Source: Natronoarchaeum philippinense
GTDB lineage: Archaea; Halobacteriota; Halobacteria; Halobacteriales; Natronoarchaeaceae
NCBI RefSeq assembly: GCF_900215575.1
Contig: NZ_OBEJ01000008.1
Span: 1 to 56,088, forward strand
Direction of reading: 5' to 3'
Length of the DNA stretch: 56,088 bases
In this document: piece by piece, positions 43,023-54,342 of the stretch
How the letters are laid out: the number at the start of each line of letters is the position of its first letter
How positions within the stretch are numbered: position 1 is the stretch's first letter
Notes under the pieces: generated by a model
The model's input: the letters and a program-made list of their open reading frames with translations, nothing else
Databases searched by the model: none
What the model was told of the DNA's origin: nothing
Made by a program: the position numbers and the translations under genes

Positions 43023-44036
43023 ATGCGAGTCGCACTTCTGGCGCACGAGCGATTCCCCGACGACGCCAAGACCGCGCTCGGCATCCTCCGGTACGCCGAG
43101 CACGACGTGGCCGCGGTGCTGGATCGAGATACCGCCGGGACGCGGGTCAACGAGCACGTTCCAGACGTGCAGGACGCACCGATCGTCTCGGATATCGACG
43201 CCGTCGACGCGCCGATCGACGCGCTGATCGTCGGCGTCGCCCCGATCGGCGGCGGCTTCGAACCGTCGTGGCGTCCCGACGTAGTCGGCGCTCTCGAACG
43301 CGGCTGTGACGTAATCGCCGGCCTGCACTACTTCCTCGCCGAGGACGAGGAGTTCGCCCGACTGGCCGACGAGAACGACTGCGAACTCCGGGACGTGCGC
43401 AAACCGCCTGAGGATCTCACGGTCAGCGAGGGCCGGGCCGGCGAGGTCGACGCCGAAGTGATCCTCACCGTCGGCACCGACTGCAACACCGGCAAGATGA
43501 CGACGACGATGGAACTGGCCCGCGCCGCCGCCGAAGCCGGCCACGACGCCGCCGTCGTGCCGACGGGCCAGACCGGCATCATGATCGAGGGGTGGGGCGT
43601 CCCGATCGACCGGACGATCTCGGATTTCACCGCCGGCGCCGTCGAGCGAATGATCCTCGAAGCCGGCGACGACCACGACTACCTCTTCGTCGAGGGGCAG
43701 GGTAGCATCGTCCACCCGGCCTACTCGGCGGTGACCTGTGGCATCCTCCACGGCGCGATGGCCGACAGACTGGTGCTCTGTCACGAGGCCGGCCGCGAGG
43801 CGATCCACGGCTACGAGGACTTTCCCCTGCCGCCGATCGAGACCTACGTCGACCGGTACGAGAATCTCGCCGCGCCCGTCCACGAAACCGAAGTCGCCGC
43901 CGGCGCGCTCAACACCTCGGCGTACGACGAGCCGGCGGCGCTCGACGCCGTCGACGAGTTTGCCGACGCCATCGACGCGCCCGCCGCCGACCCGATCCGA
44001 CAGGGCGTCGACGACTTACTGGAGGTCCTGCTGTGA
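43023..44036 (+). CDS. dgcN: DgcN-like DUF1611 protein (P-loop domain)
   Basis: This 337-residue protein matches the DUF1611/DgcN family. Residues 1-135 form a Rossmann-like domain with APIGGGFEPSWRPDVVGALERGCDVIAGLHYFLAED. The C-terminal half begins with a P-loop TVGTDCNTGKMTTTMELARAA near residue 150 and continues with VPTGQTGIMIEGWGVPIDR and DYLFVEGQGSIVHPAYSAVT. A marine-bacterial homologue was shown to act as a D-glutamate N-acetyltransferase with DgcA. Here ATG 43023 begins MRVALLAHERFPDDAKT, and the last four bases overlap dgcA, so the pair is co-translated. The bacterial substrate may not apply. Confidence 0.82.
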   Translation: MRVALLAHERFPDDAKTALGILRYAEHDVAAVLDRDTAGTRVNEHVPDVQDAPIVSDIDAVDAPIDALIVGVAPIGGGFEPSWRPDVVGALERGCDVIAGLHYFLAEDEEFARLADENDCELRDVRKPPEDLTVSEGRAGEVDAEVILTVGTDCNTGKMTTTMELARAAAEAGHDAAVVPTGQTGIMIEGWGVPIDRTISDFTAGAVERMILEAGDDHDYLFVEGQGSIVHPAYSAVTCGILHGAMADRLVLCHEAGREAIHGYEDFPLPPIETYVDRYENLAAPVHETEVAAGALNTSAYDEPAALDAVDEFADAIDAPAADPIRQGVDDLLEVLL

Positions 44037-46165: not shown

Positions 46166-47866
46166 CTAGCGCCGGTCGACGCGTTCGGGCACCGGGCGTG
46201 CCGATGCCCGCCGGCCGCCGCTGTCCGCCAGCACTCGCTCGGCGAGCGCGCCGACCGACACTCGTTCCTCGCGCCCGGTTTCGAGCACCCTGACCGGGAG
46301 CGTCTCCCCACCTGCTTCGCGGTCCCCGGCGACAGCGACATAGGGCACCCGCTCCCGATCCGCGCGGTCGAGACGTTCGCCGACGGTCGCCTCCCGGGCG
46401 TCGATGTCAGCTCGCACGTCCGCCGATCGCAACTCGTCGGCGGCGTCCTCGCAGACGCCGACGTGGCGGTCGTCGATCGGCACCAGCCGAACCTGTGTCG
46501 GTGCCAACCAGACCGGCAGTCCGACGCGTTCGGACGCCGTCGCGCGGACCGCGAGCGCGGCGATCGTCCCCTCCACGTCACCGACCGGCGCGGCGTGGAC
46601 CAGCACCGGTGGCTCCTCATTCACCTCCGCTTCGATGCCAAAGCGCGTCGGCGTCGCGGTGTCGAGTTCGACGCTTCCGAACTGCCGATCACGGCCGTCC
46701 TCGCGCGCGGCGACGAACGACAGCCGCGCCGCCCAGTACCGGGCGTCGTCGGGAACCGTCTCGACGCGCACCTCGCCGTCGAGACCGGCGTCGAGTTGGT
46801 CGGCGAACTGGGGGTGCTCGCGCTCGAACGACTCGGTAAGCTGTAGCTCCCCCGAAGCGGTCGAATCGAGCGCAGCCGTCGCGTCTGCGGCGACGCCCGC
46901 GAGCGTCTGGAACGACTCGATCGCTCCCGCCTCGTCCGGGAACCGGCCGTGGTACTCCGGGCGAACTCGTTGGCCGAACGGCTCCGGTCCGACGTTGGCA
47001 GCCACCGCCGGTGACCAGCGGACGGTCTCGGAAAACTCGGATGGCCCACCGTCGGCATCCGCGAGGGACGACAGGACGCCGCCGTGGAGGCCCGGCCGGA
47101 GCAGTTGGTCGTCGTCTGCCGGGCCGACGATCGCATCGGTCACGGCGGCGTCGTCTTGTCGATCAGCAGCCGAAACGTCACCCCGCCGGTCGGCGGCCGC
47201 GTGGACGCCGATGTCGGGCGTCGACACAGTGGCGGCGCCGGCATCTGCGAGCACTTTGGCGGCGTGCCGTTCGATCGCCGTTCGGAGGAACTGTCCTCTG
47301 GGATGCCAGCGAACGACTCGTTCGTTGGTCGCGGGATCGGCTGTCGCCAGCCCGAGCGTCGAGAGCGCGTCGACCGTCTCGGCGTCGCCGTGGCGGCCCC
47401 GGCCATCTCCCCGCTGGGGCACTACGCGCCGAGATTGCTCGGCGAAGGGATGGCCCTTGCGCTTGCACTCGATTGCAAGCCGCCAGCCGACGGGCGCCCG
47501 AAGCAGCTCTCGGTCGCCGTCGAGCGCGCTTTCGACGGCCGCCAGCGCCGCCGCGGCGACCGCTGCCGGCGCGGGGTCGTCGAGTAGTCCCTCTTTCGGG
47601 AGCACCGCGATGGCGTCTGTGCCCAGTTTGTCGGCAATAGCATCAATCTCCGTGGCGGCCGCCTTCGCGGCGGCGTCGATGTCGGCCCGATCTTCCCGCT
47701 CGACGCCGACGAAGGCGACGACGCACTCACCCAGTTCGCCCGCCGTCGGCGCTGTGGCCGGGCTCTCGGCGTCCCCGAGGCCGGCCGGGTTTTCGGCGTT
47801 CCCGGGGCCGGCCGGCTGGACGGCCTCGTAGGCGACGCGATCGGCGTGGACGGCGAGCAATCGCAT
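46166..47866 (-). CDS. Degenerate threonyl-tRNA synthetase paralogue
   Basis: This 566-residue protein has the layout of archaeal ThrRS without its key signatures. Residues 1-155 match the archaeal N-terminal editing domain (MRLLAVHADRVAYEAVQ and VGWRLAIECKRKGHPFAEQS), but the usual YPYAHL segment is replaced by LPKEGL. RWHPRGQFLRTAIERHAAKVL aligns with the beginning of the class II core, but the motif 2 arginine region is absent and the core is Ala/Asp-rich. The C-terminus (VGLPVWLAPTQVRLVPIDDRHVGVCEDAADELR) is a good anticodon-binding domain. Typical length is about 640. It may be a non-catalytic regulator or tRNA-binding paralogue. Confidence 0.8.
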   Translation of the reverse strand: MRLLAVHADRVAYEAVQPAGPGNAENPAGLGDAESPATAPTAGELGECVVAFVGVEREDRADIDAAAKAAATEIDAIADKLGTDAIAVLPKEGLLDDPAPAAVAAAALAAVESALDGDRELLRAPVGWRLAIECKRKGHPFAEQSRRVVPQRGDGRGRHGDAETVDALSTLGLATADPATNERVVRWHPRGQFLRTAIERHAAKVLADAGAATVSTPDIGVHAAADRRGDVSAADRQDDAAVTDAIVGPADDDQLLRPGLHGGVLSSLADADGGPSEFSETVRWSPAVAANVGPEPFGQRVRPEYHGRFPDEAGAIESFQTLAGVAADATAALDSTASGELQLTESFEREHPQFADQLDAGLDGEVRVETVPDDARYWAARLSFVAAREDGRDRQFGSVELDTATPTRFGIEAEVNEEPPVLVHAAPVGDVEGTIAALAVRATASERVGLPVWLAPTQVRLVPIDDRHVGVCEDAADELRSADVRADIDAREATVGERLDRADRERVPYVAVAGDREAGGETLPVRVLETGREERVSVGALAERVLADSGGRRASARPVPERVDRR

Positions 47867-47936: not shown

Positions 47937-48788
47937 TCAGGAGCTCTGGTCGCGGTCCTTGAGGTCACTCAGCTCGGATTCGATCTCCTCGTCGGAGATG
48001 TCGGCGCCGCCCTCGCTTTCGGACAGTTCGGCCTCTAGATCGGTCGGTGCGTCCTCGACCTCGGGACCGCCATCGGTGCTGGATTCGGACTCCTTGTCCA
48101 TGTCGGCTTTCAGCGTCTCCAGTTCGGCGTCGACCTGCCCCTGCGTGGTGACGTCTTCGAGTTCGCGTTCGAGGTCGCTCTTATCCGAAAGCTGGTCTTC
48201 GAGGACGCCTTCCTCCTGCAGTTCGTCGAGTGCGGCCGAGCGGGCCTCCAGTTCCTCGGTGTTTTCCTCTGCGCGCTCGATTGCGCGATTGACGTCTTGG
48301 AACTGGTCGCCGGCGCCCGTCACGGCCTCGGAGACGCGCGCGCTGGCCTCGGCGGCCTCGTGGCGCGCCTTGATCGTCTCCTTTTTCGTCCGGAACTCCT
48401 CGATGCGCTGCTGGAGCGTCTCCTTTTGCTCCGCCAACTGGTCTTGGGTCTGCTGGAGTTCGGCGATCTGACCCTCCAACTCCTCGATCTGGGTCATCTT
48501 CGTCTTCTTTTTCTCCAGCGCCTGCCGGGCCAGATCCTCCCGATCCTGCGAGACGGCCTGCCGGGCCTGCTCGTTGTGTTTCTCGACGTTTTCTTCGAGC
48601 CGGCGCTTTTGCATCTCCAGACGCTTTTTCTGGGTCGTCAGGTCTGCGATCCCCTTTTTCACGTCCTGCAGCTCGTCGCGCAACTGCTCGTAGGAGTAAT
48701 CGAGCGTCTCAGAGGGGTCTTCGGCCCTGTTGAGAACTGCGTTGATCTTCGATCGGATGACGTACGAGGCGCGCGAGAGTACTCCCAT
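47937..48788 (-). CDS. pspA: PspA/IM30 family protein
   Basis: This 283-residue ESCRT-III-like PspA protein starts MGVLSRASYVIRSKINAVLNRAEDPSETL, the amphipathic membrane-binding helix, followed by four long coiled-coil helices with Lys/Gln/Glu heptads. The last 60 residues are acidic and disordered, a haloarchaeal extension. It stabilises membranes under stress by oligomerising on them. ATG 48788 is chosen over an upstream extension: TTTTTACT at 48811-48818 lies 26-30 bases upstream, so the transcript is leaderless. It is divergent from the hydrolase. Confidence 0.94.
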   Translation of the reverse strand: MGVLSRASYVIRSKINAVLNRAEDPSETLDYSYEQLRDELQDVKKGIADLTTQKKRLEMQKRRLEENVEKHNEQARQAVSQDREDLARQALEKKKTKMTQIEELEGQIAELQQTQDQLAEQKETLQQRIEEFRTKKETIKARHEAAEASARVSEAVTGAGDQFQDVNRAIERAEENTEELEARSAALDELQEEGVLEDQLSDKSDLERELEDVTTQGQVDAELETLKADMDKESESSTDGGPEVEDAPTDLEAELSESEGGADISDEEIESELSDLKDRDQSS

Positions 48789-48810
48789 ACAAACAGTTGA
48801 AGACCCGGCG

Positions 48811-48836
48811 AGTAAAAACACCACCGACAATATTGG
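48811..48836. promoter_or_regulatory. Back-to-back TATA elements for pspA and the hydrolase
   Basis: On the minus strand TTTTTACT (48811-48818) is 26-30 bases before pspA. On the plus strand ACAATATTGG (48827-48836) is about 26 bases before the hydrolase ATG. The whole divergent region is 68 bases, so the two promoters overlap. Confidence 0.5.
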
Positions 48837-49484: not shown

Positions 49485-50975
49485 TCAGGCGTCTGCGTCG
49501 GGATGGTCTTCGGCCGCGTGCTCGATCCCGGTCACCTCGATGCGTGTCCCCCCAGCATCACCCTCTCCGACCGAGACTGACCACCCGTGAGCGTCGGCGA
49601 TCTCCTCGACGATCGCCAGCCCGAACCCGGTGCCGTCCTCGCGTGTGGTGTAGGCCGGCTCGAAGACGTGCTCGCGCTCCCCGCACGGGATTCCGGGGCC
49701 GTCGTCGACCACTGCGAATCCGCCCGCCGAATTCGCCTGACGATCGCTGCCCGCGGCTTGCCCATCGAGTATCTCGACCGCGACTGCGGTGCCGTCGCCG
49801 CCGTGTTCCACTGCGTTCGAGAGCAGGCTCTCCAGTAGCTGTCGAAGCTGTGCCCTGTCAGCTCGGATGACGGCGTCGCCGTCCGGCCGTTCGAGCGTGG
49901 CTTCGGGCGTCCCGACGACTTCCCACGCCTGCTCGGCGAGCGCGGCCAGCGACACCGACTCGGGGTCGATCTCACCCCGCCCGTATCTGGAGAGCGCGAG
50001 TACGTCGTCGACGATGTCGCTCGCTCTCTCGATCGCGTCCGTGATCGCCGAGAGATGCTCGTCGACGGCCGCGCCGTCCGGGTCCTCCGCTTGCTCCAGC
50101 GAGCGCAGGTGATCGCGTGCGGCCGTCAGCGGCGTTCGGATATCGTGCGTCACGACATCGGCAAACTCCTCTAACCGTTCGGTCTTTCGGCGCAACTCTC
50201 GCTGGGTGCGTTTGCGCTCTGTGATCTCCCGCGTGACGCCGACCAGTCCCGTCACCTCGCCGCCGTCACGGAGTGGTACCTTCGAGGTGAGATTCCACTG
50301 TTCCAGCAACGGCAAGTGCTCCTCTTTGTCCAGCACCGACGCGCCGTTTTGTATCACCTGCAGGTCGTCTTCGTAGGCTTGTCTGGCGTGTTTATCGGCC
50401 ACTTCGTCGATCTCCAGATCCGTCTTGCCGACGTAGGCCTCGCTCCGGTCGAGATGTTCGCTCACCCGCTGGTGGACGGCGTCGCCGTCTTTGACGTACA
50501 GGTGGACCGGGATACGTTCGAAGATAGCGTCGAGCAGTGCGGCGTCGCGCTGGGCCTGTGCCACTGAGTCCGTCGCGGCGGTCGTCGACGCCGTCCCGTC
50601 CTCGGCGTCGATCCGCCGGTCGGTCACGTCGACGACGAACCCCTCCAGCACCGACGAGTCGTCTCGGCTCACGGTCATTCGGTCGCGGACGCGCCGGGAC
50701 GTGCCGTCCGTCCGGCGGATTCGGTAGGTCTCCTCGACGCATTCGCCGGGCGCTGCCCCCGCGACGGCGTCCCGAAGCGCGGCCCTGTCGTCGGGAGCGA
50801 CCGCGTCGAGCCAGCCCCGGTCGGCCAGCGTGTCGGCCGCACAGCCTGTCAGCGCCTCGACCTCGTCGCTGGCATCGAGAAGCGTCTGCTCGCCCGCCCG
50901 CTGTCGTCGGTAGGTGATGCCGTCGGTCGACTCGACGACCGAGTCGAGCACCGTCTCGACGGGGGCGTCGGTCAT
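49485..50975 (-). CDS. PAS-domain histidine kinase
   Basis: This 496-residue soluble kinase has two PAS domains: residues about 15-120 (TYRRQRAGEQTLLDASDEVEALTGC) and 150-260 (FERIPVHLYVKDGDAVHQRVSEHLDRSEAYVGKTD). The H-box is DVVTHDIRTPLTAARDHL and the ATPase has [19 protein letters not shown] and GTGFGLAIVEEIADAHG. No membrane segment is seen, so it senses an internal signal or redox state. It overlaps the upstream kinase by four bases (ATGA). The two are clear paralogues from tandem duplication. No response regulator is nearby. Confidence 0.93.
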   Translation of the reverse strand: MTDAPVETVLDSVVESTDGITYRRQRAGEQTLLDASDEVEALTGCAADTLADRGWLDAVAPDDRAALRDAVAGAAPGECVEETYRIRRTDGTSRRVRDRMTVSRDDSSVLEGFVVDVTDRRIDAEDGTASTTAATDSVAQAQRDAALLDAIFERIPVHLYVKDGDAVHQRVSEHLDRSEAYVGKTDLEIDEVADKHARQAYEDDLQVIQNGASVLDKEEHLPLLEQWNLTSKVPLRDGGEVTGLVGVTREITERKRTQRELRRKTERLEEFADVVTHDIRTPLTAARDHLRSLEQAEDPDGAAVDEHLSAITDAIERASDIVDDVLALSRYGRGEIDPESVSLAALAEQAWEVVGTPEATLERPDGDAVIRADRAQLRQLLESLLSNAVEHGGDGTAVAVEILDGQAAGSDRQANSAGGFAVVDDGPGIPCGEREHVFEPAYTTREDGTGFGLAIVEEIADAHGWSVSVGEGDAGGTRIEVTGIEHAAEDHPDADA

Positions 50976-52480
50976 TCTCGCTCCTCCGTTGCGGTTTGGT
51001 CAGTGGTATCTGTGTTTGGTTCTTCGACGCCGGTAATCTCGAACCGGGCGCCCCCGTACTCCTCGCTGCCGTCGCCGGGCTGGCCGCCGCCGACCGAGAT
51101 CGACCAGCCGTGAGCGTCGACCACTTCCTCGACGATGCCGAGCCCGAGTCCGGCGCCCGACTCGCTGGTCGTGTACGCGGTCTCGAAGATCTGCTCGCGT
51201 TTCTCGGCCGGGATGCCCGGGCCGTCGTCGACGACGGCGACTCCCGTCGGCAGCAACTCGACTGCGATCAACGGTCCGTCGTCGCGGGCCGGTGCCGATT
51301 TTCGGGCAGGAGGTTGTGAGCTCGACGCTGTCCCGTGCTCGACGGCGTTCTTGAACAGGTTCTCCAGCAGCCGCGAGAGCTGCGATCGGTCGGCAAGTAT
51401 TTCGCGATCCTCGTCCGGTAGCGACAGTGTCGCTGTCCCCGTCGCCACGCTTCGCCAAGCGCTCTGTGCGACGCCGCACATCGAGACTGGTTCGAGATCG
51501 AGCGCCAACTCTCGTCGGGAGAGTGCGAGCACGTCGTCGACGATGTCGTCGGCGCGTCCGAGTGCGTCGGCCACCTCGATGAGATACTCCTCGCGATCGT
51601 CGGCGTCGCGCGCGAGTTCGGCGTACCCCATGGCGACCGAGAGCGGGTTCTGGATGTCGTGGCTCACGATGTCGGCAAACTCCTCCAGCCGCTCGGTCTT
51701 TCGGTGTAGCTCCTGTTGAGCGCGCTTGCGTTCGGTAATCCGTCGCGTGACGCCGATCAGTCCCGTCACCTCGCCATCGGCGTCTCGAATCGGCACCTTC
51801 GAGGTGAGATTCCAGTGGTCGATCTTCGGGAGATACTCCTCTTCGTCGATGACCGGCTCGCCGGTCTCGATCACCTGCATATCGGTCTCGGTCGCCCGCC
51901 GTCCGTGCTCGTCGTCCACGAACTCGAGGTCGGCGTCGCGCTTGCCGATCAGTTCGTCCGAGCGCTCGAGAAAGTCGCTGACTTTCCGGTGGCGTCCCGC
52001 CGTATCTTTGACGTAGATGTGGACGGGGACCGCCTCGAGGATGTCTGCCAGCAGCTCGGCGTCGGCTCGGTCGTGGGCGATGCCCTCGGTCGCGTCGAGG
52101 ACGATTCCGTCGATCGTCGCCCCGTCGTCGGCGATCGTCAGCCGATCGGTTACCCAGCGCTCCTCGCCGCCCTCACATTGGATCCGGTAGGTCGCCTCGG
52201 CCTCTTCGCCCGGAGTCGCGTCCTCGATGGTCGCGCGAAGCCCCGCCCGGTCGTCAGGGTGAACGAGATCGAGCCACCCCCGCTCGTCGCCATCGAGCGC
52301 GTCGGCGCCGTAGCCCGTCAGCGACTCGATGCCGTCAGTCGCTGCCGCGATCGGCTGGTCGCCGTCGGCGTCCCGCCGGTACACCGTCCCCGGCATCGCG
52401 GCGACGGTCGACGCTAGTGCGTCCGAGAGCGGCCGATCCTCGCCGTGCTGATCGCCCGGGGCCCCGCGACGAGGCGTCAT
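50972..52480 (-). CDS. PAS-domain histidine kinase
   Basis: This 502-residue paralogue of the following kinase has the same order: PAS one ([32 protein letters not shown]), PAS two ([32 protein letters not shown]), H-box ([22 protein letters not shown]) and ATPase ([37 protein letters not shown]). The H-box reads HDIQNP rather than HDIRTP, as in many haloarchaeal kinases. It heads the two-kinase operon. A 22-base imperfect palindrome (52563-52584) lies upstream, between it and pyrG. No transmembrane segment is visible. Confidence 0.93.
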
Positions 52481-52677: not shown

Positions 52678-54342
52678 ATGCCGACCGAATCGGACACCGA
52701 TTACGACCCGACCCTCGGGAACAAGTTCATTTTCGTCACCGGGGGCGTAATGTCAGGACTCGGCAAGGGGATCACGGCCGCCAGCACCGGCCGACTCCTG
52801 AAAAACGCCGGGTTCGACGTGACCGCAGTCAAGATCGACCCGTATCTGAACGTCGACGCCGGGACGATGAACCCCTACCAGCACGGGGAAGTGTACGTCC
52901 TGAAAGACGGCGGCGAGGTCGACCTCGACTTGGGGAACTACGAGCGGTTCCTCGACGAGGACATGACCTTCGACCACAACATCACGACGGGCAAGACCTA
53001 CCAGCACGTCATCGAGAAAGAGCGCGCCGGCGACTATCTGGGCAAGACCGTCCAGATCATCCCCCACATCACCAACGACATCAAGCGGCGCATCCGCGAG
53101 GCCGCCGAAGGCACCGACGTGTGTCTCATCGAAGTCGGGGGCACCGTCGGCGACATCGAGGGGATGCCCTACCTCGAAGCGCTCCGCCAGTTCGCCCACG
53201 AGGAGGACGAAGAGGACATTCTCTTTACTCACGTCACGCTCGTCCCCTACTCGAAAAACGGCGAACAGAAGACGAAACCCACCCAGCACAGCGTGAAGGA
53301 GCTGCGTTCGATCGGGCTCCAGCCCGACATTCTCGTCGGGCGCTGTGACGACCGCCTCGACCCCGAGGTCAAAGAGAAGATCGCGCTCTTCTGTGACGTA
53401 CCGACCGACGCCGTCTTCTCGAACCCCGACGTCGAGGACGTGTACCACGTCCCGCTGGTCGTCGAGGAGGAAGGCCTCGACGAGTACGTGATGGAACGCC
53501 TCGAGCTCGCCGACGACGCGCTGCCGAAAAGCGAGCGCGACAACGACTGGCGCGAGCTGGTCACTAAAGACCGCACCGGCGAAGTCGAGATCGCGCTGGT
53601 CGGCAAGTACGGCCTCGAAGACGCCTACATGTCGATCCACGAGTCGCTCAAGCACGCCGGGCTCGAAGCCGGCGTCGACGTCGAGACGACGTGGATCCAC
53701 TCCGAAGAACTGGCCGGCGGCCACGACGAGCAACTCGACGACGTCGACGGTATCGTCGTCCCCGGCGGGTTCGGTTCGCGTGGCACTGAGGGTAAGATCG
53801 AGGCCGTCCGGTACGCCCGCGAGAACGACGTGCCCTATCTCGGCCTCTGTCTCGGCTTCCAGATGGCCGTCGTCGAGTACGCCCGGAACGTGCTCGGTCT
53901 CGAGGGCGCTCATTCGGCCGAGATCGACGAGTCGACGCCCCACCCCGTCATCGACATCCTGCCCGAGCAGTACGAGGTCGAGGACATGGGCGGCACGATG
54001 CGACTGGGCGCTCACGAGACCGACATCGAACCCGGAACGCTGGCTCACGACGTATACGACGACACGTCCTGTACGGAACGCCATCGCCACCGCTACGAGG
54101 TCAACCCCGAGTACATCGACGAACTCGAAGACGCCGGCCTCGTCTTCTCTGGCAAGTCCAACAACCGGATGGAGATCGTCGAACTCGACGATCACCCCTA
54201 CTTCTTCGGGACGCAGTTCCACCCCGAGTTCCGATCGCGGCCAACCCGCGCGAGCCCGCCGTTCGTCGGCTTCCTCGACGCGGTGCTCGATCTGACTGAT
54301 GTCGATGGCGCCGCCGAGGATCACCAGGAGGTGGAGGCCTGA
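52678..54342 (+). CDS. pyrG: CTP synthase
   Basis: This 554-residue enzyme makes CTP from UTP, ATP and glutamine. The synthetase domain has [21 protein letters not shown] (P-loop), [21 protein letters not shown] and [21 protein letters not shown]. The glutaminase domain has the nucleophile Cys in [18 protein letters not shown], and the catalytic His and Glu in [12 protein letters not shown]. Length is normal. ATG 52678 follows a GTTTTGG element by about 26 bases. The stop overlaps the guaAb start by one base (TGATG), coupling the two synthetases. Confidence 0.96.

Follow-up and report, generated by a model that had tools for sequence, protein, structure and literature searches.

An eroded archaeal-type threonyl-tRNA synthetase, a putative pseudoenzyme, at the ancestral locus in Natronoarchaeum philippinense

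The locus and the eroded protein

The window (the whole stretch of DNA analysed, 56,088 nucleotides of N. philippinense contig NZ_OBEJ01000008.1) carries on its minus strand an open reading frame of 566 amino acids (46166..47866) that encodes an eroded archaeal-type threonyl-tRNA synthetase (ThrRS-R), a putative pseudoenzyme, and that starts with ATG at a conserved MRLL. Directly upstream on the same strand, across a 70-bp gap, lies a pspA/IM30-family gene (47937..48830; Pfam PF04012) whose start codon is uncertain. The conserved neighbourhood further includes pyrG, encoding CTP synthase (52678..54342, plus strand), as a marker of the ancestral locus and a DUF1611 gene (43023..44036, plus strand) as a marker of its other flank. 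Eroded and intact copies of the synthetase gene have pyrG, an alpha/beta hydrolase gene, pspA, family F4 and DUF1611 as common neighbours; within genus g16, eroded G176 and intact G147 have DUF1611, F33, F34 and F5 in common. Usp and F17 are found beside eroded G117 and G267 and intact G198. From these shared neighbours it follows that the gene is the displaced archaeal thrS, still in place, and an orthologue, not a duplicate. The first-pass annotation had called it a paralogue; it is instead the original archaeal-type ThrRS gene, displaced in its task by a bacterial-type enzyme. Beside the locus, at 49485-52480 on the minus strand, are two tandem ORFs of one family, the first of which resembles a PAS-type histidine kinase.

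Residues 1-147 (47426..47866, minus strand) form the archaeal ThrRS editing domain (tRNA-Thr_ED, DTD-like; Pfam PF08915, E 1.7e-19), which scores 70.7 bits here against 142-189 in most archaeal ThrRS. Residues 150-450 (46517..47419, minus strand) align as a remnant of the class II catalytic core that lacks the motif 2 Arg and the zinc Cys and has no Pfam match. The anticodon-binding domain at residues 458-546 (HGTP_anticodon, Pfam PF03129, E 2.3e-16; 46229..46495, minus strand) is intact, as had been noticed at first sight, and retains 19 of 22 canonical invariants. The protein falls below the cut-offs of both relevant NCBIfam models, matching archaeal ThrRS PRK03991 in three stretches (E 3e-71, 240.6 bits against 484) and Ser-tRNA(Thr) hydrolase PRK14938 at 95 bits against 362. 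Its descent from archaeal ThrRS is given by homology across both domains together with the ancestral locus. An AlphaFold model built from a two-row alignment reached pLDDT 31 and pTM 0.24, and a single-protein query against the genome contigs returned two weak relatives only.

When aligned with 50 intact archaeal ThrRS, 20 of them from haloarchaea and 30 from elsewhere, the protein bore out the first-pass proposal that synthetic and editing signatures are both eroded: the motif 2 Arg, the motif 3 Arg, the zinc Cys and the editing His and Lys are all gone, so that neither motifs 2 and 3 nor the editing His/Lys pair is intact. In the editing domain, VLPKEGL stands in place of LYPYAHL (47585..47605, minus strand), confirming the replacement of YPYAHL by LPKEGL that had been read by eye and placing Gly93 at the position of His83; GWRL stands in place of GWYK (47477..47488, minus strand), with Arg129 and Leu130 as the equivalents of Tyr120 and Lys121; and the editing Glu (Pab E134) is retained. 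In the core, the zinc-Cys segment reads PGLHGG against FAACFG in intact enzymes. The zinc site had been marked for checking at its Cys and His positions: the Cys ligand is absent, whereas the two His ligands align as present. The motif 2 block contains no Arg, again as first noted, and the motif 3 remnant VLVHAAPVGDVEG (canonical VLHCSPSGAIER; 46568..46606, minus strand) retains its His and has Gly433 in place of Arg (ER to EG). Both of these Arg residues are invariant in 50/50 intact ThrRS.

In a ThrRS, as a class II enzyme, aminoacylation should not survive loss of the motif 2 and motif 3 Arg together with the zinc Cys, and the 566-aa protein is accordingly predicted to be incapable of it. 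With Gly, Arg and Leu at the positions of His83, Tyr120 and Lys121, loss of editing is likely; it is not certain, because the DTD-like site relies on the tRNA 2'-OH for catalysis and can do without its Tyr and Glu (PMC4491819). In the Pyrococcus abyssi domain, Tyr120 and Glu134 are dispensable, loss of His83 kills or weakens editing, and K121M severely compromises it, though DTD naturally has Met at that position (PMC4491819). The earlier description of the protein as a double null thus stands for the charging residues and is probable for editing.

The charging enzyme and the distribution of both forms

The second ThrRS that the first-pass reading presupposed is present: a complete bacterial-type enzyme is encoded elsewhere in the genome (G000:C3:417648-419312, 666 bits), and the 566-aa protein therefore need not charge tRNA. 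In the bacterial-type enzyme MNCPGH, motif 2 and motif 3 are readable, and an N-terminal editing domain carries HTASH and LCKGPH; judged by these intact motifs, it should be able to charge. The 566-aa protein is the only PF08915 protein of the genome.

ThrRS-R and ThrRS-C are the homeoalleles of Andam and Gogarten; individual species usually carry one form, and among Halobacteriales ThrRS-R was reported in Halorhabdus utahensis only (PMC3191353). Across 391 haloarchaeal genomes we found PF08915 in 46, divided by score into 26 intact copies (151-177 bits) and 20 eroded ones (46-118 bits). In the other 345 no copy was detected, which makes the protein dispensable to haloarchaea as a group. More than one PF08915 protein per genome was found neither in the class-wide search nor in genus g16. 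A bacterial-type ThrRS (>600 bits) accompanies the eroded copy in 20/20 genomes; among the 26 genomes with an intact copy, 15 have the archaeal type only and 11 have both. Eroded copies thus number 0/15 among sole archaeal ThrRS (Fisher p 1.7e-5, indicative since the genomes are related). The eroded form occurs in 9/9 genomes of the window's family, and an archaeal-type copy, intact or eroded, is kept in 18/18 genomes of g16.

In two genomes the bacterial-type thrS adjoins the archaeal copy, intact in G070 (L104:3926-7907) and eroded in G388 (L091:4190-8784), which suggests that it was inserted at the archaeal thrS locus there. G337 holds (L053:4700-5101, minus strand) a truncated archaeal ThrRS remnant, an anticodon domain with an in-frame TAG, that shares 59% identity with the intact copy in G276, a member of the same genus, and adjoins a bacterial-type thrS. 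This remnant provides, for contrast, an example of real decay.

Selection and graded erosion

Purifying selection persists on the eroded copies with their catalytic residues gone. Pairwise codon models gave dN/dS of 0.081-0.256 for six eroded pairs (in a seventh, G053/G324, dS is saturated) and 0.034-0.093 for intact pairs; dN/dS is well below 1 in all seven eroded pairs, among which likelihood ratio tests (LRT) against dN/dS = 1 give values of 59.6-227. While dS is large in most pairs, G033/G141 is unsaturated and gives dN/dS 0.256 at dS 0.26 (LRT 59.6); for its dead core alone the value is 0.28 (LRT 21.4). The editing domain is likewise under purifying selection and, since constraint extends beyond the anticodon domain to the remainder of the protein, that domain may not be the sole seat of function. 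Sequences evolved neutrally in simulation down to 38% identity acquired a mean of 8.4 stops and a minimum of 4 (60 runs), and down to 62% identity the frame stayed open in 2.5% of runs. Most of the 20 eroded copies have one open frame spanning both domains, the exceptions being G327, with an in-frame TAA, and G162, split across two contig ends. The TAA of G327 (L058:6088-6090) is the single one in an otherwise collinear gene and represents a true truncation or an assembly error. Codon and acidic composition of the eroded copies are close to those of neighbouring genes or of intact ThrRS.

Retention is preferential for the anticodon domain: the eroded copies keep 85% of intact-enzyme invariants there, 57% in the editing domain and 34% in the linker and catalytic core, their catalytic residues being scattered or deleted. 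The editing Lys (Pab K121) is lost in 20/20 and the editing His in 12/20, the 566-aa protein included. In the anticodon domain, numbered by the methanogen-relative reference L069, R545, D549 and R551 are present in 20/20 and D547 in 19/20. Base-specific anticodon contacts could be checked for E. coli Glu600 only, whose equivalent is kept in 18/20 copies, again including the 566-aa protein; the E. coli R609/R611 positions are an uncertain match in that protein, and those of Arg583/Arg609 align ambiguously or already differ in intact haloarchaeal enzymes.

Genus g16 presents erosion as a graded series, which runs from intact copies (G273, G147, G520 and others) through first losses (G518, G172, G373) and loss of the editing Lys (G522) to copies whose synthetic site is gone (G519, G176, G517, G162, G024), the anticodon domain remaining recognisable throughout. 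In a joint tree the eroded copies all form a single clade within g16 at 100/100, with very uneven rates and long branches. A single origin of all eroded copies was nonetheless rejected: placed alone, the g48 pair G267/G117 moves to the intact f3 enzymes (support 100), with which it shares neighbours. The bacterial-type ThrRS tree places eroded G024 and G162 around intact G172/G373 with moderate support (86-90). From the lone placement and neighbours of G267/G117 and from the bacterial-type tree we conclude that erosion arose independently at least twice. An AU rejection of the g16 clade has the same long-branch problem as the joint tree and was not relied on. The bacterial-type enzymes form at least two clades, f1/f4 and f3/f7 having well-separated forms (L002, L110-L138), and these clades are perhaps separate acquisitions; the bacterial-type ThrRS of G161 is a further long branch.

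A possible role and its relation to known systems

On balance we favour, without great assurance, the view that the 566-aa protein is a displaced synthetase that has lost charging, and probably proofreading, and has been kept as a tRNA-binding pseudoenzyme. The lineage would have gained a bacterial-type ThrRS (ThrRS-C) and the ancestral ThrRS-R, made redundant, would have lost aminoacylation and probably proofreading. Its anticodon-binding domain most likely would still hold tRNA-Thr, or an anticodon-like mRNA loop, and the dead editing domain may serve to bind the acceptor end with no hydrolysis; the resulting protein would be a tRNA-Thr chaperone or buffer, or a translation regulator. Targets of both kinds are considered because the anticodon domain of E. 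coli ThrRS binds, besides tRNA, a loop of the ThrRS mRNA itself that resembles an anticodon (PMC6430810). We infer RNA binding from the conservation of the anticodon domain, and inactivity and the physiological role are inferred too. It is more doubtful that bacterial displacement repeatedly turned haloarchaeal ThrRS-R, in place, into a conserved non-enzymatic regulator that binds tRNA-Thr or mRNA. If true, this would mean that the anticodon domain of the archaeal enzyme served a further, non-catalytic purpose, which its bacterial replacement was unable to assume.

Three other explanations rank below a tRNA-Thr-binding pseudoenzyme. The protein could be a trans-editing factor like crenarchaeal ThrRS-ed/ThrRS-2, its core lost and its editing active, perhaps with altered specificity. 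The architecture of editing and anticodon domains matches ThrRS-ed (PRK14938, 95 of 362 bits), purifying selection acts on the editing domain, and the chemistry is permissive, with Tyr and Glu dispensable, catalysis via the tRNA 2'-OH and Met at the Lys position of DTD (PMC4491819). This is nevertheless unlikely, given that the Lys121-equivalent is lost in all 20 eroded copies when Lys to Met already severely compromises editing, that the His is lost in 12 of them, the 566-aa protein included, and that the bacterial-type partner has an editing domain of its own (HTASH, LCKGPH). Marginally less probable is a regulatory or stabilising heterodimer partner of the bacterial-type ThrRS or of another protein: the motif 1-2 region of the class II core, which contains the dimer interface, is partly deleted in many members, and the two ThrRS types are about 29% identical only (PMC3191353), even though the dead core is constrained too, the route is known for synthetase-like proteins such as SLIMP with SerRS and HisZ with HisG (PMC9437257), and the duplicated ThrRS of Anabaena have been shown to follow it (PMC4787780).

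A functionless relic in slow decay, already disfavoured, is by a small margin the least probable. It would fit fast evolution, loss of the copy from most haloarchaea, the in-frame stop of G327, the truncated G337 remnant with its TAG, and the graded series in g16. However, dN/dS of 0.08-0.26 with very large LRTs, a frame open in most copies despite deep divergence, the maintained haloarchaeal codon and acidic composition, and retention of the copy by 9/9 family members all argue against it.

As a tRNA-Thr-binding pseudoenzyme, the protein would invite comparison with several known systems. Archaeal-type ThrRS-R (PRK03991; Methanosarcina/Methanocaldococcus type) has the same domain order and full-length collinear homology, and its intact haloarchaeal copies occupy the same genomic locus; the protein described here differs in missing the zinc Cys, the motif 2 and 3 Arg and the editing His/Lys, and in residing in a genome that already has a bacterial-type ThrRS. 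Crenarchaeal ThrRS-ed/ThrRS-2 (PRK14938) likewise combines editing and anticodon domains, lacks a functional synthetic core and coexists with another ThrRS that does the charging, but keeps a working editing site, whereas the 566-aa protein is without its Lys and His and retains a remnant core of ~300 aa. LeuRS-I of Sulfolobaceae and LeuRS2 of haloarchaea are second synthetases in which charging is lost or weak and tRNA binding is kept, and in LeuRS-I editing is disrupted (PMC9437257), as is likely for the 566-aa protein. LeuRS-I, however, still makes leucyl-adenylate, and both belong to another synthetase and are not described as a displaced archaeal form kept in place. The two ThrRS of Anabaena, T1 and T2, show division of labour and one degenerate editing domain, but both are bacterial-type and both charge tRNA (PMC4787780). 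SLIMP, HisZ and other synthetase-like pseudoenzymes are catalytically dead class II descendants with regulatory roles, SLIMP and HisZ belonging to other lineages and other amino acids.

A literature search that covered few subscription papers found no earlier description of such a haloarchaeal ThrRS. Displacement of a synthetase by horizontal transfer is usually seen as a swap of one form for another. In this case the displaced enzyme stays, both of its catalytic sites have eroded independently at least twice, and selection continues. Whether archaeal ThrRS has a concealed non-catalytic role thereby becomes directly testable, with genus g16 supplying living intermediates from intact to dead.
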